Below, piece by piece: positions 1,191 through 21,800 of a stretch of 33,039 nucleotides of DNA (position 1 is the stretch's first letter; each line of letters begins with the position of its first letter). Origin of the DNA: a virus; the IMG/VR virus record IMGVR_UViG_3300020195_000756, positions 1 to 33,039 of that record. One strand, given 5' to 3'. The notes below the pieces were generated by a model. It saw only the letters and a program-made list of their open reading frames with translations. It was not told the DNA's origin and did not search any database. Made by a program: the position numbers and the translations under genes.

Positions 1191-2081
1191 ATGAAAATAG
1201 CTGTAATTGGAGCGACAGGAATGGTGGGCAAAACCATAACCGAATATTATGAGGGACAAAACAATGTTGTCGGATATTCTCTTGAAAACATCAATGATGA
1301 TTTTGGTAAATTAGTTCAAGGTTCAGAGGTTATTTTTATCTGCGTTCCCACTCCTTTTGACTGGGATAATGATAGTTACGATTTAAGTCTGATTGAAGAA
1401 TCTTTGGGAAAAATTGACCAAGCTCACGGAGACGACAAACTTCTTCCCGATACGCTTGTTGTTCTTAAATCAACCGTTCCTCCGACTACAACCGAAACAC
1501 TGCAGAATAGATTTGTTGGTTTGAATCTCTTCTTTAATCCAGAGTTTTTGAGTGAATCAACTCACGACAGCGACTTTGCTTATCCCGACAGACAAATAAT
1601 TGGAGTTACTAAAAAAGAGGGTTTTTATACCGAAATGAAACTTGCTAAAAAACTTCTTTCAATTCTTCCTTATGCTCCATATCGAGCAATCGTTAAATCC
1701 GAAGAGGCGGAGATTATTAAATATGTCAATAATTTCTGGGGAGCCTTGAATGTTTGTGTTGGAAATTTTATTGATGATATTTGCGAGATGACCAACTCAA
1801 GAACCTTAGAGGTTAAAAATGCCTCAAGAGCTTCGGGAACAATTGGCAGAAGAAATGTTGATAGGTGGTGGAATGTTGAACACAAGGGCTTCAGAGGTTA
1901 TGGTGGCAAGTGTTTTCCGAAAGATATGCACACACTTAACAAATGGTTACAGGAAAAAGGTTATGCAAAGCCGTCTTTAATTCAAGGAGTTATTAAATTT
2001 AATGAGGACCTTTTAGCAGAGCAAAATTTGACCGAAATGAGCGTGGAGGGTATTTTGCCTGTTGATAACAAACAAGACTAA
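1191..2081 (+). CDS. Shortened UDP-glucose/GDP-mannose 6-dehydrogenase family protein
   Basis: This family oxidises C6 of a nucleotide sugar to the acid (UDP-glucose to UDP-glucuronate) with NAD. The 296-residue protein has the Rossmann loop GATGMVG (8-14), VPTP near 52-55, the KSTVPPTT stretch, NPEFLSES, the helix with AEIIKYVNN and the catalytic GGKCFPKD with Cys241. Family members are usually about 390-460 residues. This one ends about 55 residues after the catalytic cysteine and lacks the C-terminal nucleotide-sugar binding domain. It may be a minimal enzyme, use a different substrate, or work with a partner. It lies upstream of the chaperonin and presumably feeds the glycan genes further on, where a UXS-like decarboxylase/dehydratase is the logical next enzyme. 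Family confidence is high; exact substrate is not. Confidence 0.85.
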   Translation: MKIAVIGATGMVGKTITEYYEGQNNVVGYSLENINDDFGKLVQGSEVIFICVPTPFDWDNDSYDLSLIEESLGKIDQAHGDDKLLPDTLVVLKSTVPPTTTETLQNRFVGLNLFFNPEFLSESTHDSDFAYPDRQIIGVTKKEGFYTEMKLAKKLLSILPYAPYRAIVKSEEAEIIKYVNNFWGALNVCVGNFIDDICEMTNSRTLEVKNASRASGTIGRRNVDRWWNVEHKGFRGYGGKCFPKDMHTLNKWLQEKGYAKPSLIQGVIKFNEDLLAEQNLTEMSVEGILPVDNKQD

Positions 2082-2114
2082 AAGGTAAAATTAAACTAAT
2101 AAATAACAGAGAAA

Positions 2115-3728
2115 ATGACACAGGCAAAAGATATTATTTTTGGTAAAGAAGCAAGAAATAAGATTATCGAGGGAGTCAAAATTCTAAGCCAAGCAGTCAC
2201 AACAACACTTGGTCCAAGAGCGAGAAATGTCATCATAAAAAGAGAATACGGTGGTCCGCTTGTGGTGCACGATGGTGTCACGGTGGCAAAAAATGTCATT
2301 CTCAAAGACCCTGTTATGGACATTGGGGCTCAACTTCTTCTTCAAGCAGCTTTTAACACCAACAGCGAGGCGGGCGATGGTACAACAACTGCGACTCTTT
2401 TGGCTTCCAATCTAATTATTGAGGGAGAAAAAATCACCAGCAAGGACATAATGAATGGCAAACTGGGTTCGGTTAATCCGATGGAGCTCCAAGTGAAACT
2501 TAACGATTATGCTGAGAAAATCTGTCAAAAACTTGCTTCCATTTCAATTCCTGCTAAAACAAGAAGAATTTATGAGCGAGTGGCGGTTATTTCTTCTGCT
2601 TCTGAAAAGATCGGCAAAATGGTTGCCGATGCGGTGGAGGCGGTTGGTGTTGATGGAGTGATTATGGTTGAGAAAAACAGAGGAATTCCCGATGAGTTAG
2701 AAATTAAAAGAGGTTTTGATTTTGACAGAGGATATTTGTCCCCATATTTTGTGACTAACCTTGACCGATATACTGTCGAGTATGACAATACTTTGATTCT
2801 AGTTTGCGACTACACAATAAGAAACGCTGACCCAATTGCAAATTTAGTTCAATCGGCTTTTGATTTAGGCAAGTCAGTTTTGATAATTGCTGAAACAGTT
2901 GAGGGAGCCGCTTTGGCTGCACTTGCCAACATCAATCTCAAAACTCCTCATCGAATTGCTGCGGTTTCTGCTCCTGAATTTGCCGACACTCGCAGACAAA
3001 TGCTTGAAGACATTGCTCTGGCAACTGGTGCAAGGTTTATTTCAAGTGAGCTGGGGGATAAGCTTGAGGATGTAACTATCAGCGATTTAGGCAAAGCTTC
3101 ATCTGTCTTTATCACACAAACCGAAACAAGAATTGCTCCAGAGATTATGGATGATGATTTGAAAGAAAGAGTTTTGACAATCAAACAGCAAATCAAAGAC
3201 GAAACAAATGACATTAAAAAAGGCAAACTCGAAAAAAGACTTGGAATGTTATCCCAAACCGTGTCAATCATCACTGTGGGCGGTTCTAGTGACGCAGAAG
3301 TCCACGAAAGGTATGAGAGGTACATTGATGCCGTTAATTCTACAAAGGCAGCCATAAGAGACGGAATATTGGCTGGTGGTGGCGTTGCTTTAATGAGAGT
3401 GGCTCGGGATATGTTTTCGGGTGACTCTCCTGAAGAAGTGTTGGTTGCAAACGCTCTGACTGCTCCCATAAAAACCTTGATAACCAATTCAGGACTTGAG
3501 TTGTCTATTTTGGACAAAATTGATAATAAAAATATCAACTACACCTCTGGAGTTAATGTGGTCACTGGAGAGATTGTGGATATGCTTGAGGCGGGCATTA
3601 TTGACCCTGTTAAAGTCACTTCTTCTGCTGTCAGGAACGCTTTTTCAGTGGCAGGAATTACTCTTACAACTGAGGTAACAATTACGGATTTAGAATCTGA
3701 TGTGCAGAAAATGGAGATTGTAAAATGA
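2115..3728 (+). CDS. groEL: GroEL-type (group I) chaperonin, phage-encoded
   Basis: Chaperonin 60 forms double rings that fold proteins in an ATP-driven chamber. The 537-residue protein is full length (E. coli GroEL has 548). It keeps the ATP site: LGPRARNV (32-39), the Asp in VHDG (Asp53), GDGTTTAT (87-94), Asp405 in the segment matching the catalytic Asp398 of GroEL, and AGGGVAL (420-426). The apical substrate/GroES contact motif GYLSPYF is present at 206-212. The Gly-Gly-Met tail of bacterial GroEL is missing. It has diverged strongly, for example SAPEFADTRRQ instead of the usual APGFGDRR. No GroES-like gene is in the window, so it may use the host co-chaperonin or act without one, as reported for some phage chaperonins. 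It is joined to the next gene by ATGA. Confidence 0.96.
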   Translation: MTQAKDIIFGKEARNKIIEGVKILSQAVTTTLGPRARNVIIKREYGGPLVVHDGVTVAKNVILKDPVMDIGAQLLLQAAFNTNSEAGDGTTTATLLASNLIIEGEKITSKDIMNGKLGSVNPMELQVKLNDYAEKICQKLASISIPAKTRRIYERVAVISSASEKIGKMVADAVEAVGVDGVIMVEKNRGIPDELEIKRGFDFDRGYLSPYFVTNLDRYTVEYDNTLILVCDYTIRNADPIANLVQSAFDLGKSVLIIAETVEGAALAALANINLKTPHRIAAVSAPEFADTRRQMLEDIALATGARFISSELGDKLEDVTISDLGKASSVFITQTETRIAPEIMDDDLKERVLTIKQQIKDETNDIKKGKLEKRLGMLSQTVSIITVGGSSDAEVHERYERYIDAVNSTKAAIRDGILAGGGVALMRVARDMFSGDSPEEVLVANALTAPIKTLITNSGLELSILDKIDNKNINYTSGVNVVTGEIVDMLEAGIIDPVKVTSSAVRNAFSVAGITLTTEVTITDLESDVQKMEIVK

Positions 3729-4024
3729 GAAAAATAAGCTTTAATAAAATAGAAGAAATGGTTGTTTGTCGGATTTGTCGAACAACCAAAGTCCCGAAGA
3801 TAAAAGCAATGATTAAGTGTGAAAATTGCAAGTCAAAAAGAACGGTAGATGCTGGTATAGGAATCTCTAATCGACAACCCGCAGCAATTATCCAAACCGA
3901 ATCGGGAGAAAAAGTGTTTGTTGATGCTCACGGTAAGGAAGTTGAGGGTCACGGATATGATCTTAAAAACGACCCAAAAGGATATAAAAAACAGGGTTTA
4001 ATTAAAGAAAGGACAATTATCTGA
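3725..4024 (+). CDS. Small zinc-ribbon protein of unknown function
   Basis: A 99-residue protein whose ATG overlaps the chaperonin stop (ATGA). CRIC near 15-18 and CENC near 32-35 make two C-x2-C knuckles spaced as in a zinc ribbon. The rest is polar, with a short beta-rich stretch around ESGEKVFVDAHGKEVEGHGY. Its position right after groEL invites the idea of a co-chaperonin, but there is no GroES mobile loop or beta-barrel pattern. A nucleic-acid or protein-binding ribbon is the safer reading. Translation is probably coupled to groEL on one side and to the CTG-started small gene on the other. Confidence 0.7.
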   Translation: MRKISFNKIEEMVVCRICRTTKVPKIKAMIKCENCKSKRTVDAGIGISNRQPAAIIQTESGEKVFVDAHGKEVEGHGYDLKNDPKGYKKQGLIKERTII

Positions 4025-4182
4025 GACACTATATTTTCAAAAGTCCAAGAAAGCCGAACGATATTGCCATTGAGGTCTTGGAATTTGAGCCGATGCAATT
4101 AATTATTGAATCTAAAGCTAAGAAATACGGACCAATAGAAATTGTTTCCGAAGAAGATTTTATAAAGGAGCAAACAAAGTGA
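4021..4182 (+). CDS. Small gene with probable CTG start, 53 residues
   Basis: The gap between the zinc-ribbon gene and the first glycosyltransferase is fully open in one frame, ending at TGA 4180-4182. No ATG, GTG or TTG lies at its beginning, but CTG 4021-4023 overlaps the preceding stop as CTGA, exactly like the ATGA and GTGA junctions used all around it. An AAAGGA ribosome binding site at 4008-4013 sits 7 bases upstream. The product would begin MRHYIFKSPRKPNDIAIEV and be a charged alpha/beta peptide. An ATG at 4093 would give only 29 residues. The downstream gene starts GTG 4179 inside this stop. Function unknown. Confidence 0.6.
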   Translation: MRHYIFKSPRKPNDIAIEVLEFEPMQLIIESKAKKYGPIEIVSEEDFIKEQTK

Positions 4183-5009
4183 GGCTGACCGTTGCAGTTC
4201 CAGTGATGAATCAGCCAGAACTCACACAAAAGTTTTTGGATACCCTTAGAGAGAATGAGGGAGAAGCAAAATTGCCATTGTTAATCGTGGATAATGGCTC
4301 AACTCCTCCTGTCAGGGATTGGTTAATTGGTCTAAGAGATGGGGATTTTGTTATCCATAATCAAGAAAATGTTGGTGTGATGCCAGCACTAAATCAAGCT
4401 TGGCAAGTCTTAAAAGATAATTCTGATTATATTTTTTATACCCATAACGATGTTTTGATTCACGAAAAAGGTTGGGATGACAAGATTGTTGATTTGCTTG
4501 AGAAGATGCCGAATTGTGGAGTGGCTGGTTTTTATGGAGCAAAAGGAATTGGTGCTCCTAATCTTTACAGAGCACCTTACGCAATTCACCAGCTTATCAG
4601 ACTTGAAAATGTTTCTAATTGCAATCGAATGAGTGCTTCTATTCACGGATTCCGACCAATTAGAGGAGAGTTTGAAAAGGTGGCGGTGATGGATGGCTTC
4701 TCTTTGATAGTTAAAACAGACTTATTAAACAAGCTCGGAGGTTTTGACCGAACTTATCCTCAACACCATATGTACGACAATGACCTTTGTATGGAAAGTT
4801 TAGACAAAGGCTATGACAATTATGTGATTCCGATGGATGCAGACCACATTGGAGGGCAAACAGATGTCAAAGAAGATTGGGCTAAAAACTTTGGTCGCAC
4901 AAAAGCTGAGATTCACTCTGATGCTCATCCGATTTTTTACGAAAAATGGTCACCGTCTAATGTTGAAAATGGGAAACACAATATAAGTCTGCCAATTAGA
5001 ATCCAATGA
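4179..5009 (+). CDS. Family 2 glycosyltransferase (GT-A fold)
   Basis: GT2 enzymes transfer a sugar from a nucleotide sugar to an acceptor glycan or lipid. The 276-residue protein begins at GTG 4179 in a GTGA overlap. It shows the GT-A order: strand TVAVPVMNQ (4-11), VDNGST (37-42) for nucleotide binding, HND at 89-91 as the metal-binding DXD equivalent, and GGFDRTYPQHHMYDNDLCM in the acceptor half, where DND is the likely catalytic/acceptor acidic cluster. No membrane segments are seen, so it is cytoplasmic. It is coupled by ATGA to the cupin gene, which places it in one glycan operon. Donor and acceptor cannot be read from the sequence. Confidence 0.9.
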   Translation: MRLTVAVPVMNQPELTQKFLDTLRENEGEAKLPLLIVDNGSTPPVRDWLIGLRDGDFVIHNQENVGVMPALNQAWQVLKDNSDYIFYTHNDVLIHEKGWDDKIVDLLEKMPNCGVAGFYGAKGIGAPNLYRAPYAIHQLIRLENVSNCNRMSASIHGFRPIRGEFEKVAVMDGFSLIVKTDLLNKLGGFDRTYPQHHMYDNDLCMESLDKGYDNYVIPMDADHIGGQTDVKEDWAKNFGRTKAEIHSDAHPIFYEKWSPSNVENGKHNISLPIRIQ

Positions 5010-5374
5010 AAATAATAAAAGAAGAAGATTTGTCGGTATATATTGACGAGAGAGGCAAGATTGTCAATCTTACTCCCGAACTAGATATTAAGGATGTCTT
5101 ATATATTACTGGCAAAAAAGGTGCAGTCAGAGGCAATCACTATCACAAAACAGACTTTCATTATTGTTATGTGGTCAGCGGTCAAATTAGGTATGAATCG
5201 CAGTCAGCCGATGGGAACAAAGATGTTGTTTTGGAAGCAGGAGATACGGTTTTTTCACCTGCTCTTGAGAAGCATAGATTTACATTTCTTACTGATGGTG
5301 CATTTATTTCGCTTGCCAAAAATAATAGAGCAACTGAAAAATATGAGGAGGACACTGTTCGTGAAGAGTTTTAG
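5006..5374 (+). CDS. Cupin sugar-modifying protein (WxcM/FdtA-like)
   Basis: A 122-residue single-domain cupin starting in an ATGA overlap. The first cupin motif is GNHYHKTDFHY (His45, His47, with His52 following) and the second GDTVFSPALEKHRF (79-92, His90). Similar small cupins in sugar clusters are WxcM/FdtA-type 3,4-ketoisomerases or relatives of dTDP-4-dehydrorhamnose 3,5-epimerase, which act on 4-keto nucleotide sugars. The next two genes, a C-methyltransferase and a 4,6-dehydratase-like SDR, also belong to 4-keto-sugar chemistry, which supports this over a general cupin role. Size and motifs support the family well; the exact reaction is inference. Confidence 0.8.
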   Translation: MKIIKEEDLSVYIDERGKIVNLTPELDIKDVLYITGKKGAVRGNHYHKTDFHYCYVVSGQIRYESQSADGNKDVVLEAGDTVFSPALEKHRFTFLTDGAFISLAKNNRATEKYEEDTVREEF

Positions 5375-6581
5375 GAATAAAATATGCCGTCTTTGTGGCA
5401 ACAAGAAATTTGATAGATGGCTCAATTTGGGCAGACAACCTCTTGCCAATGAACTCTTGGAGTATTCTCCTGTTTTTGGACAAAAGAAATTTCCTCTAAA
5501 TGTAGTCCGATGCAAGAGCTGTGGACTGTTTCAGCTCAACTATGTTGTTTCACCAGAAAGATTGTTTGCTAACTATAAATATTTTTCCTCGACTTCTGAG
5601 GTCTTTGTAAAGCATTTCAAAGATTTGGCAGACGAATTAATGGCAGAGAAATTTGTCAAAAAAAATGATTATGTTATCGACATTGGTTCTAATGATGGAA
5701 TTTTGTTGAAGCCTTTTAAGAAACTTGGGGCTAATGTTTTGGGGATTGAGCCATCGACCAATTTGTCTGATCTTGCCAACGCACAAGGAATTCCAACAAT
5801 CAATGACTGGTTATCTCCTGAGCTTGCTCTAATTATCAGAGAGAGCATTGGAAATAAAGATGTCAAGCTGGTCACGATGACCAATGTGTTTGCTCACATT
5901 CACGACTCAGAGAGTGTTCTTGAGGCTGTTAAAATTTTGATTGGCAAAACTGGAACTCTTATGATTGAAGTTCCTGATTTGGAAGAGATGATTAAGCAGG
6001 GTACTTTTGACCTTATTTATCACGAACATTTGAGCTATTTCTCCAAACAAACGATTGATTTAATGCTTATTCGCTATGGTTTGTTGATGGATTTGTCACA
6101 GAAAGTTAATGTTCACGGTGGTTCACTTCGGGCTTTTGCAAGAGTTTTTGATACCGACATTGCTCTTGAAAAGTTTTACAAAAACAACATTCGTTTTGAG
6201 GATAGGGTCAATGTTTATGGGTTTATTGAGAACATTCAAAAGAACAAAGTAAAAACAGTTTCTCTTGTCAATAAGTTGGCAAAAGATAAAGTTATTGTCG
6301 GGTATGGTGTTCCGGCTAAGTCATCGACCATTTTTAACTTTTACAAAATAGGCAAGAAACAAATTAAGTTTATGATTGATGATTCCCCTGCCAAGCAAGG
6401 TCTTTACACGCCAGCAACTTATTTGAAGATTTATGCACCAGAGCAGGTCAATTTTGCAGAAATTGATTATATATTCATTTTTGCTTGGAATTTTGCCGAA
6501 TCACTTAAACAAAAAGCTAGAGATAGAGGATTCAAGGGACAGTTTATTATCCCCTTTCCAGAAGTGAGGGTTGAAAAATGA
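5361..6581 (+). CDS. Sugar C-methyltransferase (TylCIII/NovU/TcaB9 type)
   Basis: These enzymes add a methyl branch to carbon 3 of a 4-keto nucleotide sugar using SAM. The start is taken as GTG 5361 because GAGGAGG lies at 5346-5352, nine bases upstream; an ATG at 5094 in this frame would lie inside the cupin gene. The 406-residue protein has the three expected parts: N-terminal zinc domain (Cys9, Cys12, Cys51, Cys54), SAM-binding domain with VIDIGSNDG (105-113) and the EHLSYFS motif, and a C-terminal domain with VGYGVPAKSSTIFNF, DDSPAKQG and FAWNFA, all signatures of this family. It overlaps the cupin by 14 bases and the following SDR by ATGA. This gene is the best evidence that the pathway makes a branched sugar. 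Confidence 0.9.
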   Translation: MKSFRNKICRLCGNKKFDRWLNLGRQPLANELLEYSPVFGQKKFPLNVVRCKSCGLFQLNYVVSPERLFANYKYFSSTSEVFVKHFKDLADELMAEKFVKKNDYVIDIGSNDGILLKPFKKLGANVLGIEPSTNLSDLANAQGIPTINDWLSPELALIIRESIGNKDVKLVTMTNVFAHIHDSESVLEAVKILIGKTGTLMIEVPDLEEMIKQGTFDLIYHEHLSYFSKQTIDLMLIRYGLLMDLSQKVNVHGGSLRAFARVFDTDIALEKFYKNNIRFEDRVNVYGFIENIQKNKVKTVSLVNKLAKDKVIVGYGVPAKSSTIFNFYKIGKKQIKFMIDDSPAKQGLYTPATYLKIYAPEQVNFAEIDYIFIFAWNFAESLKQKARDRGFKGQFIIPFPEVRVEK

Positions 6582-7630
6582 ATATAGTTCAGGAAGATAT
6601 TAAGACAATTATTAAAGCAATTGACTGGAAGCGGTTTGATGATAAAGAAGTAATTATTTCGGGTTGTTCTGGATTTTTAGGCAGTTGGTTTATGGCGGTG
6701 TTTGCTGAGCTAAACAAGAACTATTTGGACAAACCTGTCAAGGTTTGGGGTATTGATTCTTTTATTGCTGCCGACAAGCCTAATTCCATTGTTGGTTTGA
6801 GTGACAACAATCTTGTTCTGTGGAAAGGGGACATTGCCAAATTTCCTCTTCAGGGAACGGTTGATTTTATTATTCACGCTGCTGGGATTGCCTCCCCTAT
6901 TTTTTATCGACAATTCCCCATTGAAACAATTGAAGGAATGGTGCTGGGGTTAAATAATTTATTAAAGTTTTCAATCGACAATAAAGTGGAGAGTTTCTTA
7001 AACTTTTCATCAAGCGAGATTTATGGCAATCCGCACGAGGATGAAGTGCCAATTAAAGAATCATATAACGGGAATGTTTCCTGTACTGGCCCTCGTTCGT
7101 GCTATGACGAGAGCAAGAGAATGGGAGAGGCAATGTGTGTCGCTTATCACAAAATCCATAAGATTTCAGTCAAATCAGTCAGACCTTTCAATGTCAGCGG
7201 TGCCGGAATGAGAATCAATGATGACAGGGTTGTTCCTAAGTTTATATTTTTAGCCTTGCAAGGCAAACCAATCACTGTTCACACACCAGCAACTCAAACA
7301 AGGACTTTCACTTACATTACCGATGCAATGATTGGGTTTTTCAAAGTCCTTTTGAATGGCAGAGATGGAGATGTTTACAATATTGGCAGAGATAAACAGG
7401 AGGTCACAATATTGGAGCTGGCAAATATGGTCAAAAAAGAGGTTGCTGATGTCGAAATTCAGACAGTTCCTGTCCCGCAAGAATACCCACAAGACCAAGC
7501 CAACCGCAGATGTCCAGATATAACCAAAGCTAAAACAGATTTGGGATTTGACCCTCTTGTGGATTTGGAAACAATAGTTAAAAGAACCGCAATATGGGCA
7601 AAGGAGGCATTAAATGAAAAAGCTAACTGA
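6578..7630 (+). CDS. NAD-dependent sugar epimerase/dehydratase (UXS/RmlB-like SDR)
   Basis: An extended short-chain dehydrogenase of 350 residues. The Rossmann motif GCSGFLG is at 29-35, HAAG near 100-103, the SSSEIYG motif at 144-150, and the catalytic YDESK at 176-180 (Tyr176, Lys180). GPRSCYDESKR and the RPFNVSGAGMR...DDRVVPKFI region are very like UDP-glucuronate decarboxylase (UXS) and also dTDP-glucose 4,6-dehydratase. Both reactions pass through a 4-keto sugar. With the dehydrogenase at 1191, a route from UDP-glucose through UDP-glucuronate to a 4-keto-pentose is possible. The protein is complete and cytoplasmic. It overlaps the C-methyltransferase by ATGA. Confidence 0.9.
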   Translation: MNIVQEDIKTIIKAIDWKRFDDKEVIISGCSGFLGSWFMAVFAELNKNYLDKPVKVWGIDSFIAADKPNSIVGLSDNNLVLWKGDIAKFPLQGTVDFIIHAAGIASPIFYRQFPIETIEGMVLGLNNLLKFSIDNKVESFLNFSSSEIYGNPHEDEVPIKESYNGNVSCTGPRSCYDESKRMGEAMCVAYHKIHKISVKSVRPFNVSGAGMRINDDRVVPKFIFLALQGKPITVHTPATQTRTFTYITDAMIGFFKVLLNGRDGDVYNIGRDKQEVTILELANMVKKEVADVEIQTVPVPQEYPQDQANRRCPDITKAKTDLGFDPLVDLETIVKRTAIWAKEALNEKAN

Positions 7631-8321
7631 TGTGGTAATCCCTGTTTTTAACCGACCAGAGCACACCAAACAAACGCTTGATTCTCTGTTTGAAAACACT
7701 GCTCCTGAATTGTTTAATCTTTATATGGTCAATGACAAGTCCGACCAACAGACCTCCGATTTGTTAATAAAACTCAAAGCCTTGTATCCATTTGTATTAA
7801 TTGAAAATGAAAAAAATATTGGTCCTGCTGCTTCAAGAAACATTATCTGTAATCAGGTTATAAAACCAAACGAGAGGTCTGAATATCTTTATCACTCGGA
7901 CAATGATGTATTTTTCACTGACGGCTGGCTTGAGAAGCTTGTCAAGGCTTTCAAACAATGTTCAGAAGAAGTGAAACTTCTGGGTGGTAGTTGTCATCCA
8001 TATTTGCAAACATCAAAGATTCTTTATATCGGTGAAAATTATAAAATTGGCGAAAAGGATGCCGTGTCGGGCTATTCTCAGTTGATGACTTGGGACACTT
8101 GGATAAAATATGGACCATTTGACGAGAATCAGGGCACTCAAGACCAAAAAATAATGGGAAGTGAGGACTGGGCGTTTTGTCAAAGAATCATCAAAGACGG
8201 CTTCTTGGTGGGTTCGATTGAGCCAGAGGTTGTTATTGCGACTGGCAAGACCAACACTTATGGTGACCAAGCCACTGGAAGCGAAACATTCAAGGAAGTT
8301 GAGGGAGTGAAAATACTATGA
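7614..8321 (+). CDS. Family 2 glycosyltransferase
   Basis: A 235-residue GT2 enzyme. It starts at ATG 7614, eight bases after GGAGG, and overlaps the SDR gene by 17 bases. Visible motifs are the first strand DVVIPVFNRP (6-15), the nucleotide site around VNDKSD (39-44), KNIGPAASRN (68-76) and the DXD motif DND at 96-98. A conserved acidic pair, GSEDWAFCQR, comes late in the protein as in many GT2s. There is no membrane segment. It probably adds one sugar of the same glycan as the other two GT2 genes. It joins the HNH gene by ATGA. Confidence 0.9.
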   Translation: MKKLTDVVIPVFNRPEHTKQTLDSLFENTAPELFNLYMVNDKSDQQTSDLLIKLKALYPFVLIENEKNIGPAASRNIICNQVIKPNERSEYLYHSDNDVFFTDGWLEKLVKAFKQCSEEVKLLGGSCHPYLQTSKILYIGENYKIGEKDAVSGYSQLMTWDTWIKYGPFDENQGTQDQKIMGSEDWAFCQRIIKDGFLVGSIEPEVVIATGKTNTYGDQATGSETFKEVEGVKIL

Positions 8322-8668
8322 CAATTTCTTTGAGAGACGATAAAGGAAGATTTATAAAGGGTCATTTGCAATTAAATAGTGGAAAAACCCATTTCAAAAA
8401 GGGACAATTTTCAGATGAAAAACATTTTAAGTGGAAAGGTAATAATGTGGGGTATTATGCATTACACAATTGGATATATAGGAAACTTGGAAAAGCCTCA
8501 AAATGTATAAATTGTGGAACTTTTGAAAATGTTCAATGGTCGAATGTTAGTGGAAAATATAAAAGAGATTTAGAAGATTGGCAAGAATTATGCAGAAAGC
8601 ACCATCAAAAATATGATAATTGGGTAAATAAAGGTTGGAAAACAAGGAGGGCAACACAATTACTATAA
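8318..8668 (+). CDS. HNH homing endonuclease-like protein
   Basis: A 116-residue protein of the small phage HNH type. A basic N-terminus (RFIKGHLQLNSGKTHFKKGQ) resembles DNA-contact segments of free-standing homing enzymes. ALHNWIYRKLGK leads to a zinc-binding core CINC (Cys63, Cys66) and LCRKHH (Cys92, His95/His96), with WSNVSGKYKRDLEDW between them. In relatives the last part is usually LCxxCH; here His replaces the fourth cysteine, which can still bind zinc. The gene sits between a glycosyltransferase and a gene whose start is unclear, as expected for an inserted selfish endonuclease. The ATG 8318 is in an ATGA overlap. Confidence 0.8.
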   Translation: MTISLRDDKGRFIKGHLQLNSGKTHFKKGQFSDEKHFKWKGNNVGYYALHNWIYRKLGKASKCINCGTFENVQWSNVSGKYKRDLEDWQELCRKHHQKYDNWVNKGWKTRRATQLL

Positions 8669-9027
8669 GCTTCGATTGGATAAGTTACCAAAATTATAAT
8701 CCCTTTTTTGACCTGATTGTTCCCTTGTTGCAAAAAGAGGGACACAGGGTCGGGATAATAGCATCTCTGAGAGATAAGGAGTACAGCAGGCAAAATGTTC
8801 TGATTGATAACAAAGAAATGATTGAGAACCAGCTTCCTTTCAAATTAGATTTTATGTTTTTGTGGGGGGAAAGTGAAACCATTTCAAACGGTGCTCTTTG
8901 GAAAGCTCAAAAAATGGATCAAGAAAATGTTCTTTTCCACTTTGATGTTGATGCAACTGATATGAAGAAAATGACTGAGCGGTGGATTTTTAAGACCTTA
9001 GACAACACAAGCATAAACAAATTTTAA
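8635..9027 (+). CDS. HAD-like protein with degenerate active site; start disturbed by HNH gene
   Basis: The frame is open from TTG 8635, but a strong AAGGAGG (8644-8650) suggests initiation a few codons later, at ATT 8659 or ATA 8665, after which the protein reads ITISFDW. The layout resembles a small phage HAD hydrolase: strand ending in FDW (usual DFDGT), LLQKEGHRVGIIASL (motif II region), a Lys-containing LWKAQKM, and FHFDVDATD (motif IV region). The nucleophile motif DxD is not kept, so phosphatase activity is doubtful. About 130 residues. It overlaps the HNH gene by 34 bases, unlike its neat neighbours, and may have lost its original ATG when the HNH gene arrived. Fold assignment is tentative. 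Confidence 0.5.
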   Translation: MENKEGNTITISFDWISYQNYNPFFDLIVPLLQKEGHRVGIIASLRDKEYSRQNVLIDNKEMIENQLPFKLDFMFLWGESETISNGALWKAQKMDQENVLFHFDVDATDMKKMTERWIFKTLDNTSINKF

Positions 9028-9059
9028 TATGAAATACAGTAGAGCACAAATAAAATAAA

Positions 9060-9623
9060 ATGATTAATTTAACTGATATTTGGGAAAAAGTAGAAGAATC
9101 AAGTCACGAAACGGCTTTTAATTATGGTGAGGTCGAGGGACTATTTAATTTATTGTCTAGTTTGCAAGACCGCTCAACTGTTCTTGAAATTGGTGTTCAG
9201 TTTGGCAGAAGCACAACCGTTTTTGCTGAGGTTGCAAAGGATAAGAGTTTTGATTTAACTGCGGTAGATAACTGGGGTGAAGCTAATGGAGAAGAGGCCC
9301 ATTCTCATATTCTTTCACAGGTTAAAAAATACAATTGGAAATTCACTCTCTTGTCTGTAGATTCTGCTGATGCTGGAGAAATTCTAAGAGGTAAAACATT
9401 CAATTTAATTCACATTGACGGTGACCATTCTTATGCTGGAGTGACGGCTGATTGTAAAACTTGGCTTCCAAGAATTAAAAAGGGTGGGTATGCTTGTTTT
9501 GATGACTATGGACACGCTGGGCTAGAAGGAGTCAAAAAAGCGGTAGATGAATATATTGACGACAAGTGGGAAAATATAGCTTTGTACGGCAACAAATTAC
9601 AAGTTTTTAAGAAAATAAAATGA
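9060..9623 (+). CDS. Class I SAM methyltransferase (Methyltransf_24 type)
   Basis: A 187-residue enzyme. SAM motif I is VLEIGVQFGRST (41-52), the acidic motif II region is LTAVDNWG, and LIHIDGDHSYAGV is the signature of the Methyltransf_24 family found in many sugar and cell-surface gene clusters. GGYACFDDYG follows as in relatives. It probably methylates a hydroxyl of a sugar, but proteins or small molecules are possible. No close ribosome binding site is seen before ATG 9060; a ten-codon minigene (ATG 9029 to TAA 9058, peptide MKYSRAQIK) precedes it and might couple translation. It ends in an ATGA overlap. Confidence 0.85.
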   Translation: MINLTDIWEKVEESSHETAFNYGEVEGLFNLLSSLQDRSTVLEIGVQFGRSTTVFAEVAKDKSFDLTAVDNWGEANGEEAHSHILSQVKKYNWKFTLLSVDSADAGEILRGKTFNLIHIDGDHSYAGVTADCKTWLPRIKKGGYACFDDYGHAGLEGVKKAVDEYIDDKWENIALYGNKLQVFKKIK

Positions 9624-10300
9624 ATAAAAATTTATATACATTTGCTGAAGCACAAGAGAAAGTTAAAATAAACCACTTTACAAAGAAAGGGTTTGACATT
9701 TGTGGTGTGGTTCACATTGGGACAAACTATTGGTACGAGCTCCCTTTTTATATGCAAATGGGCATTGAAAACATTGTAGGGTTTGAGCCACTTGGTTGGG
9801 CAGTTGAAAAGGTGCTCAAAAAATATGGAGACACTGAGGCTTTTATGAGTGGAAAAGCTGGAATTTATAATTTTGCACTAGGCGACTTTAACGGTTATAT
9901 GGATTTACATTTAGCTAATGGGGATGGACAAAGTTCGACTTTTCTTGAATTAACTCCCGAATATAGAGAAACATTCAAAGAGATTGAGTTTATAGGAGAT
10001 AAATCCTGTATGGTTATGACATTTGAAAAATTTATGAAAACTCACAAGGAGTTCAATATTGCAGACTTTAATTGTTTAGTTTTGGATGTTGAGGGAATGG
10101 AGCTGAGGGTCTTACAAGGAATGGGCAACAAGATTAAAAAATTTGATTTCTTAAACATAGAACTTTCTGGTGAGCCGACATATATTGATGGTCCTGATGC
10201 TCAAACCGTGATTGATTATTTGAAAACTTTCAACTTCATTCAAGACTCCCCAATTGAACCTCACAATGATGTGATTTTTATCAGAAAGGACTTGCTATGA
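9620..10300 (+). CDS. FkbM-family methyltransferase
   Basis: FkbM enzymes are SAM-dependent O-methyltransferases, common in polyketide and surface-glycan clusters. The 226-residue protein has GVVHIGTNYWYELPFYMQMG (29-48) as the variant motif I, NIVGFEPLGW for motif II, ALGDFNGYMDLHLAN and the diagnostic LVLDVEGMELRVLQG (153-167). It is a complete domain without membrane segment. ATGA overlaps on both sides tie it to two other methyltransferases, so three sugar positions or three sugars may be methylated. Confidence 0.9.
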   Translation: MNKNLYTFAEAQEKVKINHFTKKGFDICGVVHIGTNYWYELPFYMQMGIENIVGFEPLGWAVEKVLKKYGDTEAFMSGKAGIYNFALGDFNGYMDLHLANGDGQSSTFLELTPEYRETFKEIEFIGDKSCMVMTFEKFMKTHKEFNIADFNCLVLDVEGMELRVLQGMGNKIKKFDFLNIELSGEPTYIDGPDAQTVIDYLKTFNFIQDSPIEPHNDVIFIRKDLL

Positions 10301-10860
10301 AAAAAGGGCTTCATATTGGTGCTGGTCCAGTTCACCTCGACAATTCTTTTGATATAGACTGGGAAAATTCAGACGGAGCGGAAACAGAAAGTTCACGCAG
10401 TTGGAGTCTTGAAAAGCATAGGGATTTTACCAAACCATTTGAGGATATTGTGGATAACTCTGTGGATTATATTGTTTTTTGGCACTGTGTTGAACATCTA
10501 GGATTGCACGAAAAAGACGATGTTTTGAAAGAATTTAGTCGTATATTAAGAGCTGGCGGAAAACTTTTCATTGCTTGTCCGGATATGACAAAAATAGCTA
10601 GGCATATTGTGGACAGAGATGGTCCTTGGGCTGATTGGTTTATTTGTGCGGTCAATGTTATGGGTCCTTACAATGGGTATGTTGGTGACTTTCACAAATG
10701 GATTTATAATTTTGAAGAACTGTCAAAAGTCTTAAAAGAGAACGGATTTTCTGAAACCAATGAACTTTCGCAAAATGTTTTGGCTCATCATATTGGGATT
10801 GAAAATACAAACAAGCTTGGATTTGCGGATTTTAATATCCAAATGGAGACAACTAAATGA
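10297..10860 (+). CDS. SAM-dependent methyltransferase (type 11-like)
   Basis: A 187-residue protein with a compressed SAM fold: LHIGAG (5-10) is motif I, the segment around NSFDIDW (16-22) supplies the ribose-binding acid, and YIVFWHCVEHLG (58-69) is the motif found in type 11 methyltransferases and predicted sugar-cluster methyltransferases. RILRAGGKLFIACPD is motif post-II. It starts in an ATGA overlap with the FkbM gene. Substrate unknown, probably the same glycan. Confidence 0.85.
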   Translation: MKKGLHIGAGPVHLDNSFDIDWENSDGAETESSRSWSLEKHRDFTKPFEDIVDNSVDYIVFWHCVEHLGLHEKDDVLKEFSRILRAGGKLFIACPDMTKIARHIVDRDGPWADWFICAVNVMGPYNGYVGDFHKWIYNFEELSKVLKENGFSETNELSQNVLAHHIGIENTNKLGFADFNIQMETTK

Positions 10861-10866
10861 AATTAT

Positions 10867-11736
10867 ATGGCACAAAATAATCAATCACGGCTATATATTG
10901 TAATTCCTGTCATTAACTGCTTTGAGATGACCGTTGAGGCTATAAATTCAATTAAGACCCCTTGTACGGTCATTTTGATTGATAATGCTTCTGATGATGG
11001 AACTCAGCAATGGGGAAAAGACAATGACGGAAAAGACATTGGAGATGGCAAGAATTTGATTTATATCCGCAACAACGACAGAAAAGGTGTTGCTGAGAGC
11101 TGGAATTGGGGTATTAAAAGGGCTTTTGAGGATGAAGAGTGTCAGTATGTCGGAGTGCTTAATAATGATGTTGTTTTGCACCCTAAAACCCTTCCACACT
11201 TAATGGCTTTTATTGACAAAACAAACTATTTAATGGTCACGGCTGACAATATTAAAGACCGAATGAGCAAAGAAACAATGTTGATGATGGAACTGCCCGA
11301 ACCTTTTACTGATTACGATTGCAATAAAATAACTGATTGGAGAGCTGAGGGTCCTGATTTTTCTTGTTTCCTCATCACTCGAAAGACTATTGAGGTTATT
11401 GGCTGGTTTGATGAGAATTTTCACGGTGCATATTGTGAGGACCAAGATTTTCACGCAAGATGTCAGAGAGCTAGGGTTTGGGCTGAACAGTATAACGACC
11501 AAAATATTAAACCTGAATATATCCACTTTAAGAGGCTTTCAACCGCTCCTTTTTTTCACTATGCTAGTCAAACAATAGCTCAAAATACAAAATTAAGAGT
11601 AGAAATATCCGTCAGTCACAGGAATAACCAAAATTATTATTTAGAAAAATGGGGATTCGACCATCCTGAAGTGATGGATGGACAGGGAAACATCCAACCA
11701 TTTGGAAACGCAGAAAAGAACTGGAGAATGTGGTGA
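10867..11736 (+). CDS. Family 2 glycosyltransferase
   Basis: A 289-residue GT2 enzyme with YIVIPVINCFEMT (10-22), LIDNASDDGT (37-46), the DXD-equivalent NND (99-101) and FHGAYCEDQDFHARC in the acceptor region. In this gene the ribosome binding site GGAGA (10846-10850) points at an earlier ATG (10857), which reads only MKLYGTK before a stop; the glycosyltransferase ATG at 10867 lies inside that minigene in another frame. Translation is therefore probably by reinitiation or coupling, or the start region was shifted. It ends in a GTGA overlap. Confidence 0.88.
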   Translation: MAQNNQSRLYIVIPVINCFEMTVEAINSIKTPCTVILIDNASDDGTQQWGKDNDGKDIGDGKNLIYIRNNDRKGVAESWNWGIKRAFEDEECQYVGVLNNDVVLHPKTLPHLMAFIDKTNYLMVTADNIKDRMSKETMLMMELPEPFTDYDCNKITDWRAEGPDFSCFLITRKTIEVIGWFDENFHGAYCEDQDFHARCQRARVWAEQYNDQNIKPEYIHFKRLSTAPFFHYASQTIAQNTKLRVEISVSHRNNQNYYLEKWGFDHPEVMDGQGNIQPFGNAEKNWRMW

Positions 11737-12101
11737 AAATAGGTTGCAAAAATTGCGGTATTCATTTCCCTGAAGATTATGTTGTTTCTTTGACTCCAGT
11801 TTGTAATTTTTGGGGAGAACACGGAATTGGAAACTTGCCTGACAAATACAAATTACAACTTTGGGATTGGATTTTCTCCTTGCCAACTGATGCAATTTTT
11901 ATTGACACTGGGATTAGTATGTTGATTGATTTTGCTGGAATCGTTGTTCCTAAAGATAAACTGTTTGAGAACAAAATTCCCAACTGGAACAAATTTTCTG
12001 AGGCAAAAAGGAAACAAATTGAGCGTGACCATTTTAAGAACATTGTTTTCAAAACAGACATAAAAAAACCAATTCAATTAATAAGTGAGGTTAAAAACTA
12101 A
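11733..12101 (+). CDS. Unknown protein with N-terminal Cys-x2-Cys
   Basis: Two GTG codons are adjacent (11730 and 11733). I choose 11733 because it forms the GTGA overlap typical here and leaves five bases after GGAGA. The 122-residue product begins with KIGCKNCGIHF, a CxxC pair, with a third cysteine at LTPVCNFWG. The middle (FIDTGISMLIDFAGIVVPKD) is hydrophobic but not clearly transmembrane, and the C-terminal half is charged. I do not recognise the family. Its place between two glycosyltransferases suggests a glycan role. It joins the next gene through TAATG. Confidence 0.65.
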   Translation: MKIGCKNCGIHFPEDYVVSLTPVCNFWGEHGIGNLPDKYKLQLWDWIFSLPTDAIFIDTGISMLIDFAGIVVPKDKLFENKIPNWNKFSEAKRKQIERDHFKNIVFKTDIKKPIQLISEVKN

Positions 12102-13648
12102 TGAATAGAAAAATTAGAGTACTAGCATTGTGTGATGCTCCAACATCTGCAACAGGGTTTGCACAAGTTTCTCGCAACATTCTTAATGGTTTGGCAAAGA
12201 CTGGTCTATATGAGATTGATGTTATTGGAATCAATTACAACGGTGACTACTACGACAGAGAAAAATTCCCTTACAACATCTATCCCGCCTGTCCTGCTAA
12301 TTACGCTGATATGTATGGCAGAGGTAGATTGCTTGATGCCATAAATGGTGTTGAAGTTAAAAACAATTTGATTCCCTCTTGGGATATTATTTTTACCATT
12401 CAAGACCCTTTTATCATCGAGGGTGCTGGTGTTAGTTTCCCACTCGCTGTCCATATAAAAACACGCAGAGAGATGTTCGTGCGAACACTTCCAAAAGAAA
12501 ACTGGTTCAAATGGATAGGTTATTTCCCTGTCGATTCTGATTTGAAAGAAAATTGGGTTACAAAGTCAATTGCTCTTGCTGATGTTCCTGTTGCGTATTG
12601 TGATTATGGAAAAAAAGAAATGCTTAAATTTGACCGCAAAGAGTTTGATGTGACATTCCAAATGAAGCTTGATACTAACGGCAGTCCTCAAAAAGTAACA
12701 ATGAAAGTTCCAAACCTCAAAGATAGACTCAAAGCAATTCCTCACGGTGTTGATACAAATGTCTTTAAGCCTCTATCTAAAAGCGAAATAACAAAATTCA
12801 GAAAAAACTATTTTAACGGAATCGTCAAAGACGATACATATCTTGTCGTAAACATATCCCGAAACCAACCGAGAAAGGACTTAGCAAGGACATTAAAAGT
12901 TTTTGCTGACTTCAAGGCTCTTGTTCCCAACTCCTTTTTATATCTACACTGCAAAGATGATGACTTGGGTGGATCAATTCACGAGTTGGCAAGAAATTTT
13001 GGCTTAATTTTAGGAGAAGATTATTCTGTTCCAAAAGAGTTTGACGCAGGGATAGGTTTTGCTGTTGATATAGTCAATATGATTTATAACGCTGCTGACT
13101 TGTGTATAACCACCACTCTTGGTGAGGGTTGGGGGTTTATAAACACAGAAGCAATGGCAACCAAGACTCCAATTGCTGCTCCTTACATCACCTCAATGAT
13201 AGATATTTTTAGCAATTATGACCCGACTCTTCCATTAGAAAAACAATCACTGAGAGGAATTCCGGCAAGAGCAGGAACAACTTCATCTGAGTGGACCTGT
13301 CTTGGATTTACCGATAACGAAAGAATAAGACCGCTGACCAATGTTAGTGATATGGTCAATAAAATGTTCTGGGCTTACTCTAATCCTGATGAGGTGAAAA
13401 AAATAACCGACAGAGCTTATGAGTGGGTACAAAATCTTGATTGGACCAATGTGGTTAAACAGTGGAATGACTTATTCTTAAGGACATTTAATGAACTAGA
13501 GGAAGAAAGAAAAAAAGGAACTCTGATTGATACAACTAACAGAAACGACCCTTGTCCTTGTGGTTCTAAATTAAAGTTCAAGAAGTGTCACGGTGGTCCT
13601 CTAGCAACTGATAAGTTTAGAGATTGGTTTGTTGAAGAAAAAAAGTAA
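12101..13648 (+). CDS. GT4-family glycosyltransferase fused to a SEC-C zinc motif
   Basis: A 515-residue GT-B enzyme. The N-terminal Rossmann half starts VLALCDAPTSATGFAQVSRN with the glycine turn for the acceptor. The donor half has IPHGVDTNVF, NISRNQPRKDL and the GT4 Glu-x7-Glu motif in LGEGWGFINTEAMATKTP. At the very end, after a charged linker, lies NDPCPCGSKLKFKKCHG (residues 482-498; Cys485, Cys487, Cys496, His497), a textbook SEC-C zinc motif known from SecA and many unrelated proteins. In SecA this motif binds SecB, so here it may recruit the enzyme to a partner. It is the last gene of the glycan block; a 166-base gap follows. Confidence 0.92.
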   Translation: MNRKIRVLALCDAPTSATGFAQVSRNILNGLAKTGLYEIDVIGINYNGDYYDREKFPYNIYPACPANYADMYGRGRLLDAINGVEVKNNLIPSWDIIFTIQDPFIIEGAGVSFPLAVHIKTRREMFVRTLPKENWFKWIGYFPVDSDLKENWVTKSIALADVPVAYCDYGKKEMLKFDRKEFDVTFQMKLDTNGSPQKVTMKVPNLKDRLKAIPHGVDTNVFKPLSKSEITKFRKNYFNGIVKDDTYLVVNISRNQPRKDLARTLKVFADFKALVPNSFLYLHCKDDDLGGSIHELARNFGLILGEDYSVPKEFDAGIGFAVDIVNMIYNAADLCITTTLGEGWGFINTEAMATKTPIAAPYITSMIDIFSNYDPTLPLEKQSLRGIPARAGTTSSEWTCLGFTDNERIRPLTNVSDMVNKMFWAYSNPDEVKKITDRAYEWVQNLDWTNVVKQWNDLFLRTFNELEEERKKGTLIDTTNRNDPCPCGSKLKFKKCHGGPLATDKFRDWFVEEKK

Positions 13649-18737: not shown

Positions 18738-20003
18738 ATGAAACACTTTGAACGGTTTGCAAAAATAACTAAGATTGATGAGGATGAACGAATGGTCTAT
18801 GGATGGGCTTCCACCCCTGATCTTGATTCTGATGGAGAGATAATCAAACTGTCCGCTATTGAGAAAGCACTTCCAGAATATATGAAATTCCCTACTCTAA
18901 GGGAAATGCACCAAGCTAAAGCAGCAGGCAAAACAATTGAGGCAACAATTAAGAATGGTGAACAAAAAGGACTATATGTTGGAGCAAAGGTTGTTGCTGA
19001 CGATACTTGGAAGCTAGTCAAAGAGGGTGTTTATACGGCTTTTTCAATTGGTGGCAATGTCATAAAAAGAGTTGGCAATGTCATTGAGAGTCTTGAATTG
19101 GTTGAAATCTCTTTGGTTGATGTTCCTGCTAACAAAAAGGCTGTTGTTGAACTCTGGAAAGCTGGAAAAATAAGCAAAGATGCTGAAACTGCTTATTCAA
19201 TGGCTAATTTGATGATTCAGGTCAAGGAAATGATGAATTATTGTGAATATTTAGGTAAGCCAACTAAAAAACTAGCTAAGATTCTTGAGCTTATTAAACA
19301 ATTGGTTGTTGAAGAAGCTAGTGGAGAAGAAGTGCAAATGTCTGCCAATGTTTTGAATACTAAGGATAAGATTGCTGTCTTGGAAAAGATGGATTTATCC
19401 GACAATGTGCTCGCTGATGCCTTGCGATTGGGGGTGATTGCATTAATGAAAGACAAGAAACTAAAAAAGGTTGAGGATGTCAAAGAAGAAGAGCAGGTTA
19501 CACCCGCTGAAGCTGAGACAACTGAAACTGAAGAAGTAATTGAGGAAGAAGTCGAGGAAACAACTGAAGAGGTAACTGAGGAAAAAGAAACCTCCGAAGA
19601 TGTTGAAATGACTAAAATTTCCACAATTACAGACAAATTGACCAAAATTCTTGGAACTAAGGTTGAGCCTGAAGTAGCCGAGAAAATGAATTTGTCAAAA
19701 AAGATTAGTGGCTTGGTAGAATCTTTCGAGAAAGTTGCTGGTGTTTTAGAAGCAATTGATGAAAGATTGAAAAAAGTTGAAAGTACTCCTGCTGAAATAA
19801 AGTCAAAAACAGTAGCCGTGCACAAAACTAATGCTGAAGTTGCAGAAATCAAAGAATCGTCTGAGCTTGACCTAATCAACAAAAGACTGGAAGAGCTAGA
19901 TGGCGAACACTCGAAACTAGGAGCTTCGAATTTCTCGAAGATATATAGCTCTGAGGTTTCAATTCTATTGTCCCAAAAGGACAAAATAACTGGAAACAGT
20001 TAA
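18738..20003 (+). CDS. Prohead protease with acidic scaffold tail (XkdF-like)
   Basis: This protein probably trims head proteins during assembly and may serve as scaffold. The 421 residues begin with VYGWASTPDLDSDGE (20-34), typical of phage XkdF-like serine proteases. His58 in REMHQ and Ser103 in AFSIGG are the likely catalytic pair, and ISLVDVPANKKA marks the end of the domain near 135. Residues about 250-300 are an unbroken acidic stretch rich in Glu and Thr, then a helical region that could be the scaffold/delta part. There is no separate scaffold gene, which fits a fusion. It begins right after the terminator. Confidence 0.88.
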   Translation: MKHFERFAKITKIDEDERMVYGWASTPDLDSDGEIIKLSAIEKALPEYMKFPTLREMHQAKAAGKTIEATIKNGEQKGLYVGAKVVADDTWKLVKEGVYTAFSIGGNVIKRVGNVIESLELVEISLVDVPANKKAVVELWKAGKISKDAETAYSMANLMIQVKEMMNYCEYLGKPTKKLAKILELIKQLVVEEASGEEVQMSANVLNTKDKIAVLEKMDLSDNVLADALRLGVIALMKDKKLKKVEDVKEEEQVTPAEAETTETEEVIEEEVEETTEEVTEEKETSEDVEMTKISTITDKLTKILGTKVEPEVAEKMNLSKKISGLVESFEKVAGVLEAIDERLKKVESTPAEIKSKTVAVHKTNAEVAEIKESSELDLINKRLEELDGEHSKLGASNFSKIYSSEVSILLSQKDKITGNS

Positions 20004-20035: not shown

Positions 20036-21073
20036 ATGGATAATAAATTCGATGTAATTGATAGTTTCGATGACGAAACAAGACAGTCTTTGATGAAAGC
20101 TGCTGAGCTTCTTGCTACACAGCCTTTTTCACCTCCGTCTCGTTCAGTTTTCGCACCTCAAAACATAACTGAAGATATTAAATTGGTTGTGCCAATTGAT
20201 TCTCCGCTTCGCAACAGGCTTTCTGTTGTTCAAGGTTATGGACAGGCAGCAGTGTTTAAGAAGCTTACTTCTAGGCTTCACTCTAATACTGGTGCTGGTG
20301 GTGTTGGAACTAACACGACAATCGCTTTTGCGGATGCTGGTGCTCCTAACGAAACTACTCAAACCTATACAACCGTTTCTTTCCCTTTCAAGCTTCTTGG
20401 AAGAAAAGTTGAGGTTGGTGGTTTGGCAATTGCTGCGACTGCAAACGGTATGGGTGCAAGTGGTGATCCTCGAATAAACGGTGAAAATATGCTTTCAGCA
20501 AGAGAGCGTGTCAAAGCTGTCGAGGTAATGTTGGGTGAAGAGGAACTTATTATTGGTGGTGATGTTGATACTTCAGCTCTTCAATTTGATGGGCTTGGTA
20601 AACAAATCGTTACTAATTCAGGTAACGCTTCACTTCTAACTGCATCTGGAATTAGTGCTTTCTGTAACACAGCTTACTTGGCTGGTGGAAATCCGACAGT
20701 GCTTGTTCACAATGCTCGTCAAGGTCGTGCAATATCAGACAATCTCGAATGGTCTGGTTCTATTCAAAGAATCGCAATCGCTAACAGCACAGGCGTTACT
20801 GCAGGTGCAAGAGTGACTGAAGTTATAAACTCGGTTACTGGGAGTGTTATTGACCTTGAAGTATCACGATATGTGGGCGGAGACGCTTACTTACTTCAGG
20901 AAAGAACTTCTGCTGGTGAAAATTGTATTCAGCTGGAAGAACTCATTCCAATGAGTCGAGTGGATGTTGCTTCAAGTAATTTTTCACAGATAAAATTCGT
21001 TCTCGAATCTCGTGTCTTGGAAGTTATTTATGAGCCGTTCCAAATGAAAATCGGAGGTCTAGCAATAGGCTAA
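20036..21073 (+). CDS. Major capsid protein (HK97 fold)
   Basis: 345 residues, without signal or membrane segment. It shows the usual course of HK97-like capsid proteins: a short N-terminal helix region (DDETRQSLMKAAELLATQ), the E-loop with Gly/Thr-rich GAGGVGTNTTIAF, the long spine helix region LSARERVKAVEVMLGEEELIIGG, and the A domain at the end with LIPMSRVDVASSNFSQIKFVLESRVLEVIYEPFQMK. There is no separate scaffold and no decoration gene. The strong ribosome site and its position directly after the protease leave little doubt. The mature N-terminus cannot be predicted. Confidence 0.93.
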   Translation: MDNKFDVIDSFDDETRQSLMKAAELLATQPFSPPSRSVFAPQNITEDIKLVVPIDSPLRNRLSVVQGYGQAAVFKKLTSRLHSNTGAGGVGTNTTIAFADAGAPNETTQTYTTVSFPFKLLGRKVEVGGLAIAATANGMGASGDPRINGENMLSARERVKAVEVMLGEEELIIGGDVDTSALQFDGLGKQIVTNSGNASLLTASGISAFCNTAYLAGGNPTVLVHNARQGRAISDNLEWSGSIQRIAIANSTGVTAGARVTEVINSVTGSVIDLEVSRYVGGDAYLLQERTSAGENCIQLEELIPMSRVDVASSNFSQIKFVLESRVLEVIYEPFQMKIGGLAIG

Positions 21074-21075
21074 AG

Positions 21076-21134
21076 GTTTTGAAGCTTGCCTCGTCGTTCT
21101 CTGTTAAACGAGGCAAGTACAGAGACTTCAAAAC
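21076..21134 (+). promoter_or_regulatory. Compact structured RNA candidate after the capsid gene (A-B-C-B'-C'-A')
   Basis: Three perfect complementary pairs are interlaced in 59 bases: A GTTTTGAAG (21076-21084) with A' CTTCAAAAC (21126-21134); B CTTGCCTCGT (21085-21094) with B' ACGAGGCAAG (21108-21117); C TCTCTGT (21098-21104) with C' ACAGAGA (21119-21125). A and B make a continuous 19-bp stem with C' as bulge; C in the loop can then pair with C'. All three together involve 52 of 59 bases. There is no T-run after it, so it is not a plain terminator. One base between B' and C' makes simultaneous pairing of B and C sterically hard, so a switch between two folds is possible. Confidence 0.7.
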
Positions 21135-21149
21135 TGATAAGATTAAGTT

Positions 21150-21800
21150 ATGGATTACAATTTGATTACTCCTGCTGACTTTGCTAGTTATGCACCAGAG
21201 GTCGTTACGACTGGATATACTGCACCGACAATTTCTGGAATGATTGCTCAAGCCTCAAGACGAGTGTCTGATTATCTCGAATACACACCTATTGTTGAGG
21301 TCATTGTTGATGAGGTAAAAAAAGGGATTGTTAAGTCTAATGGCGATTTGTATATTAAACCCGCCAAAGTTCCAATTGTGTCGGTTAGTGCAATAAATAT
21401 CTTCAAAGGGTCTGAAACTATAGCTTTAACCTTGCTGACCAGTACTGGTGTAAAAAAATACAACATTGATTTTAGGTCAAGGTCAATCGTCTATCCTTAT
21501 TATGAATTTAACGGTTCAAGCGGAACTCTGGTTTTGACAGATTTTCTTTCGTTAAGATATTCTGATTTTTATATTAAGTTAAGCTATACAGCGGGATGGC
21601 AACCAGATCAGCTTCCAGCTACGATTAAACAGGCAACTGTTCTTTTTATGCGGGATATTATATCCCAAGCTAATAATCCTCTTGGTGCAACATCATTCTC
21701 ACAGGGTTCAATCTCAATGAGTTTTGGTAATGCAAGATATGGGTCAAAGTTTATTCAAGATGCCGTGAGACTTCTTGCTCCATATAAGAGAATTGGATAA
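21150..21800 (+). CDS. Head-tail connector (gp6-like adaptor)
   Basis: A 216-residue protein right after the capsid gene. The N-terminal helices (ITPADFASYAP, ISGMIAQASRRVSDYLEY) and the late segment IKLSYTAGWQPDQLPATIKQATVLFMRDI are typical for adaptors that add the first ring beneath the portal. GSISMSFGNARY near the end is also usual in this family. ATG 21150 lies 16 bases after the structured element and has no strong ribosome site of its own. Confidence 0.82.
   Translation: MDYNLITPADFASYAPEVVTTGYTAPTISGMIAQASRRVSDYLEYTPIVEVIVDEVKKGIVKSNGDLYIKPAKVPIVSVSAINIFKGSETIALTLLTSTGVKKYNIDFRSRSIVYPYYEFNGSSGTLVLTDFLSLRYSDFYIKLSYTAGWQPDQLPATIKQATVLFMRDIISQANNPLGATSFSQGSISMSFGNARYGSKFIQDAVRLLAPYKRIG

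Follow-up and report, generated by a model that had tools for sequence, protein, structure and literature searches.

The described RNAs that come closest to the element reported here are of several kinds. The name of Mu-gpT-DE RNA (Rfam RF03012) denotes an element downstream of a phage capsid gene. Intrinsic terminators such as Tphi of phage T7 stand directly behind the gene for the major capsid protein (MCP). RNase III signals of the T7 R1.1 type lie between genes of the phage message, R1.1 itself being a 60-nt stem with an asymmetric internal loop (PMC6121014). H-type pseudoknots form when bases of a hairpin loop pair with the sequence just 3′ of the hairpin. Among viral exoribonuclease-resistant RNAs (xrRNAs), a pseudoknot able to block Xrn1 was found to block bacterial RNase J1 in vitro as well (PMC5760640).

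The element lies in IMG/VR virus record IMGVR_UViG_3300020195_000756, whose 33,039 nucleotides make up the window analyzed here. The gene order around it is a protease-like gene (18738–20003), the MCP gene, a head-tail adaptor gene and a neck protein gene. The MCP gene (20036–21073, plus strand) encodes a 345-residue protein that matches Pfam SU10_MCP at 1.6e-8. Its AlphaFold2 model (mean pLDDT 66, pTM 0.64) matches HK97-fold phage capsids, the best PDB match being the phage Pa223 capsid (E 1.3e-12). The adaptor gene (21150–21800, plus strand) was assigned through phrog_442 (2.7e-13), and no Shine-Dalgarno (SD) match was found upstream of its start. The stretch 1191–13648 of the window, ahead of the terminase, also contains a cluster of genes of the sugar-nucleotide, methyltransferase and glycosyltransferase kinds, together with a chaperonin of the Cpn60/TCP-1 family (2115–3728).

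The element itself occupies positions 21075–21135 of the plus strand, starting 1–2 nt past the MCP stop codon, and was defined by a pattern finder, by folding and by homologous sites in relatives. It is made from three helices in the order A-B-C-B′-C′-A′. The closing stem pairs A (21075–21084) with A′ (21126–21135); it is perfect over 21076–21084 and 21126–21134, to which a G-U pair adds 21075/21135. Inside it, B (21085–21094) forms a 10-bp hairpin with B′ (21108–21117), and C (21098–21104), in the loop of this hairpin, makes 7 bp with C′ (21119–21125), which lies in the 3′ bulge between B′ and A′. The linkers are 3 nt (B-C), 3 nt (C-B′) and 1 nt (B′-C′), with none between A and B or between C′ and A′.

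A first-pass annotation, made from the letters alone, had described this order, with perfect pairs of 9, 10 and 7 bases at 21076–21134, C in the loop of the A+B hairpin, C′ in its bulge and one base joining B′ and C′. These positions proved exact, and its placement of the element between capsid and neck genes agrees with the HK97-fold MCP upstream and the head-tail adaptor downstream. By itself, the A+B hairpin has a folding energy of −22 kcal/mol (z = −4.4), which 0 of 200 shuffles equaled. When A and B were kept constant, the complementarity of loop and bulge (C/C′) alone had p = 0.005 in the window, and the corresponding values in 28 relatives range from <0.0004 to 0.035.

The relatives were drawn from IMG/VR and from genome contigs and comprise 57 distinct MCP 3′ regions, which were searched with a finder written for A-B-C-B′-C′-A′ with short linkers. 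The three-helix pattern was found at the MCP 3′ end of 30 of them: directly 3′ of the MCP gene in 29, and in the last (L012) as a copy beyond an inserted HNH gene. The letters are almost wholly different among elements that share the layout. For every one of the 29 positive loci, all 300 dinucleotide shuffles scored lower in the finder than the true sequence. Across 397 kb of these loci, both strands, scores of at least 44 were confined to MCP 3′ ends (and their mirror images on the minus strand), the second copy in L012 and one tail-gene site. In 1.08 Mb of other viral contigs, scores of at least 50 came solely from contigs that carry the L008 element itself, the background otherwise reaching no more than 49; in the unrelated viral DNA, about 1.05 Mb, no such score was found. 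The background loci came from an IUPAC pattern scan and are unrelated hairpins, a hairpin-like selection that makes them a conservative control.

Pair counts within the finder's own matches are circular, and the independent evidence comes from these background scans and from an alignment test. The alignment comprised 12 elements of one clade neighboring that of the window, with a single gap position and with the structure taken from L013; the window's own clade was too small and too diverged to enter the count. In this alignment, 93.8% of cells were paired, against 68.9% when shuffled, and the covariation score was 0.773, against 0.276 for shuffled alignments and at most 0.20 for slid structures. 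Compensatory changes, i.e., changes on both sides, were found in 25 of the 29 base pairs. Helices A and B tolerate G-U pairs and a few mismatches. Helix C was paired in 100% of cells, with eight of its nine pairs co-varying and zero G-U in the 12 sequences; compensatory changes in C/C′, whose lack in relatives would have spoken against the element according to the first pass, were thus present. RNAalifold finds only A and B, being unable to draw the crossing helix. Strict Watson-Crick pairing in helix C goes together with a purine-rich C′, a character that A and B do not share (alignment columns 24–32 with 46–54; e.g., L013 6033–6041 with 6054–6062).

The element is thus a conserved RNA structure with all three helices under selection, and its shape has been kept by evolution while nearly every letter changed. 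When G-U pairing was disallowed, many elements were destroyed or weakened, and allowing A-C instead rarely helped. This need for G-U, and not for A-C, indicates that selection acts on the sense RNA. It also bears on the reading of the site as a DNA-level palindrome for recombination or packaging with no RNA role, which is very improbable: inverted repeats are necessarily present on both strands and homing-endonuclease genes adjoin the element in four phages, but for many elements sense-strand G-U pairs matter much more than A-C mismatches do, letter conservation is absent and the site is always sense-oriented behind structural genes.

No relatives among deposited phages were found by nucleotide search or tblastn, nor any for the MCP, and a terminase query gave no confirmed relatives. 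MCP relatives are numerous in IMG/VR, and three were found in bacterial genome contigs, namely a Patescibacteria MAG, a Candidatus Woesebacteria MAG and one other bacterium, two of the three being Patescibacteria. These bins, read with the caution due to binning, suggest that the hosts are Patescibacteria (CPR). PNPase, RNase J, RNase Y and RNase III are encoded in the two hosts with identifiable enzymes; in the third genome, the matches to PNPase and RNase III are weak or broken and RNase R is present.

The pattern is unevenly distributed. C and C′ are absent in 27 of the 57 relatives, most of which keep a hairpin at the site, so the first-pass argument against the element, its absence from relatives, applies only in part: to C/C′, but for most of these relatives not to the hairpin. 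In two relatives (L022 and L028), A+B is retained while C and C′ are missing together, as read from the sequence. Placing the three-helix label on the MCP tree takes 13 changes, of which at least 12 are forced, and the label occurs in two deep branches, which implies that it is old or was repeatedly gained, and was often lost. Five relatives (L002, L074, L075, L147 and L150) have a hairpin and then a T-rich stretch at the homologous position. In L147, L150, L074 and L002, these look like intrinsic-terminator hairpins with T-runs that replace the element just after the MCP stop; L002 belongs to the window's own clade.

Whether helices B and C can coexist was addressed with a coarse model of rigid A-form helices, in which linkers were treated as maximal P-P distances and clashes as simple beads. 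In this model, a full set of 12 + 9 bp is strained, with violations of 2–5 Å. Fraying of about 3–4 of the 21 B/C pairs (e.g., to B12/C6 or B10/C7) satisfies all constraints, and unknotted solutions exist. B and C may thus form together with slight fraying. The first-pass annotation had held that the one-base linker was too short to span helix B, so that either B-B′ frays or the RNA switches between two folds. As an argument against simultaneous B and C pairing this was too strong, the modeled strain being relieved by that small loss, and mutually exclusive folding was dropped as the sole possibility.

Helix lengths vary among the elements (B, 7–15 bp; C, 6–10 bp), and the B′-C′ joint is 0–2 nt, most commonly 0. 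The overall dimensions are nearly fixed: from C to C′, most elements span 30 ± 1 nt (27–33 overall), and the stretch that begins with B and ends with C′ is mostly 43–46 nt long (range 41–49). These near-fixed lengths argue for one compact fold over a free two-state switch. A+B and A+C are each stable folds, A+B usually being the more stable by 5–10 kcal/mol in energies computed for these two folds.

The element starts a median of about 8 nt past the MCP stop (stop-to-element distance about 0 to 60 nt), and the next gene begins anywhere from −8 to +175 nt relative to the element end. Being close to the MCP stop while the next start is variable, the element goes with the MCP gene. In L008, L012, L013 and L016, genes for homing endonucleases (NUMOD3 combined with either HNH or a DUF559 nuclease domain) have been inserted directly 3′ of it, and in L008, L013 and L016 it stays beside the MCP gene despite the insertion behind. 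In these last three, the endonuclease genes start within or right behind the element (L008 3203, L013 6064, L016 6120). At L012 1838–2592, an HNH/NUMOD3 endonuclease gene lies between a degenerate and an intact copy, a pattern that could reflect joint movement of endonuclease and element or a rebuilding of the element behind the endonuclease. Stop-codon readthrough was rejected, because further in-frame stops come immediately and because the distance from stop to element varies so widely.

Behind the major tail gene, L009, L023, L119 and L166 have a hairpin with a loop that pairs with the bases immediately 5′ or 3′ of the stem; the window has no such hairpin at that place. Tail-gene hairpins of this kind (L009 8132–8175, and after 9932 in L119, 9894 in L166, 10359 in L124 and 10099 in L125) make up a second family of linker-poor pseudoknots.

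The MCP is presumably the most abundant structural product of such phages and the major tail protein the second, judging by the nature of capsid and tail-tube proteins. The position behind the MCP gene and, in some phages, the major tail gene, the replacement by hairpins or terminators, and the joint absence of C and C′ where A+B is kept lead us to infer, tentatively and with slightly less than even confidence, that the element is a cis-acting RNA that marks the 3′ boundary of the MCP message within a polycistronic late transcript. At its core would be the A+B hairpin, long and bulged, with C-C′ loop-bulge pairing reinforcing it in many of these phages to give a compact three-helix pseudoknot. 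It would halt PNPase on its way into the MCP segment from the 3′ side and RNase J on its way into the downstream segment from the 5′ side, and ribosomes leaving the MCP gene would be kept from running on into the adaptor gene. The outcome would be an MCP output in large excess over that of the adaptor, with the abundant MCP message protected and uncoupled from the weakly needed adaptor. In relatives without C/C′, hairpins or intrinsic terminators could serve the same job.

Three observations count against a boundary role. The absence of C/C′ in so many relatives, with at least 12 gains or losses, means that the pseudoknot is not essential. The A+B hairpin alone is already stable. In addition, about six of the 29 elements (L005, L008, L009, L010, L011 and L013) carry SD-like motifs (AGGA, GGAG, GAGG or AAGG) in C′ or at the C′/A′ junction, shortly before the next ATG, which a pure 3′-end role does not require.

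Among the other readings, an RNase III processing signal is one of the two serious ones; it is improbable but fits several features. As happens in T7 mRNAs, host RNase III would cut A+B and so detach the MCP message from the genes that follow, and C-C′ would shape or shield the cut site. Both identifiable hosts encode RNase III, and A+B totals about 15–25 bp (around 20 bp) about an asymmetric 8–11-nt 3′ bulge, which matches the T7-type succession of stem, asymmetric internal loop and stem between genes. However, T7 RNase III sites are ruled out as the same topology by the same finder: they lack the loop-bulge pairing, and their maximum score of 34.5 is at background level. Strict C/C′ conservation is likewise not a known need of RNase III.

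The SD-like motifs would find a use if, in the clade whose C′ holds them, the element were a translational switch; this second serious reading is slightly less probable still. B-B′ and C-C′ would then be alternatives, and C′ would carry or overlap the ribosome-binding site of the next gene, hidden by C-C′ pairing and left in the bulge by A+B, which would link adaptor translation to RNA folding or to MCP translation. The stability of both A+B and A+C is in keeping with this, but the energy gap favors one fold, A+B. Furthermore, an SD is absent from C′ in most elements, including that of the window, with the start 11–44 nt downstream of C′. A switch would not need near-fixed lengths either, and the helices are sterically compatible in the model with slight fraying.

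It is quite unlikely that the hairpin acts on transcription, by pausing or partly terminating RNA polymerase without a U-tract and so reducing transcription past the MCP gene. The terminator-like hairpins at the same place in L074, L147, L150 and L002, the last from the window's clade, point in this direction. However, no T-run follows the window element, as the first pass had noted, or any of the 29 scored three-helix sites, in contrast to the five other relatives above, and a hairpin acting on RNA polymerase would have no need of C/C′. For lack of the T-run, an intrinsic, rho-independent terminator, i.e., a G+C-rich hairpin followed directly by a T-run, was rejected at the 29 sites.

Rfam 15 gave 0 matches in the window at the gathering score and chance matches only when relaxed to E up to 10. 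Mu-gpT-DE was rejected: in seven of these phage records, the RF03012 model matched nothing above its cut-off, nor did it match at the element. Literature searches returned no description of the element in the papers within reach, many subscription papers lying beyond it. The first-pass statement that no family with this layout is known agrees with these searches, and the element can be described as a cis-acting structure in phage mRNA, with no curated relative and with a fold that is unusual and tightly interlocked. Speculatively, and with low confidence, it may represent a new class of RNA fold, in which two helices of about one turn interlock with virtually no linkers, a third stem closes the whole and shape alone is conserved. 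In phages of ultra-small bacteria, such a fold would bring RNases or ribosomes to a mechanical halt behind the highest-output genes. The RNA is strongly supported as a structure, and the phage group in which it occurs has no relatives among the deposited phages searched. It allows one to test directly how a large excess of capsid over neck proteins is set in phages that lack an obvious terminator, and its tight geometry tests how short pseudoknot linkers can get.

Compared with the known systems, the element resembles signals of the T7 R1.1 type in being a stem of about 60 nt with an asymmetric internal loop between genes of a polycistronic phage message. Unlike them, its bulge of 8–11 nt is on the 3′ side only, is complementary to the hairpin loop and co-varies with it, a pattern that the T7 sites do not have. 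It shares with intrinsic terminators such as Tphi the place directly behind the MCP gene, but has no U-tract and has the additional C-C′ pairing. xrRNAs are likewise compact pseudoknots; the topology of the element differs from theirs and it has no conserved nucleotides. Exonuclease resistance is a candidate property of the element. As in H-type pseudoknots, a hairpin loop pairs outside the hairpin, as the covariation of helix C shows, but the element has a closing third stem, stems of 7–15 and 6–10 bp, and a B′-C′ joint of 0–2 nt that is shorter than classical linkers.
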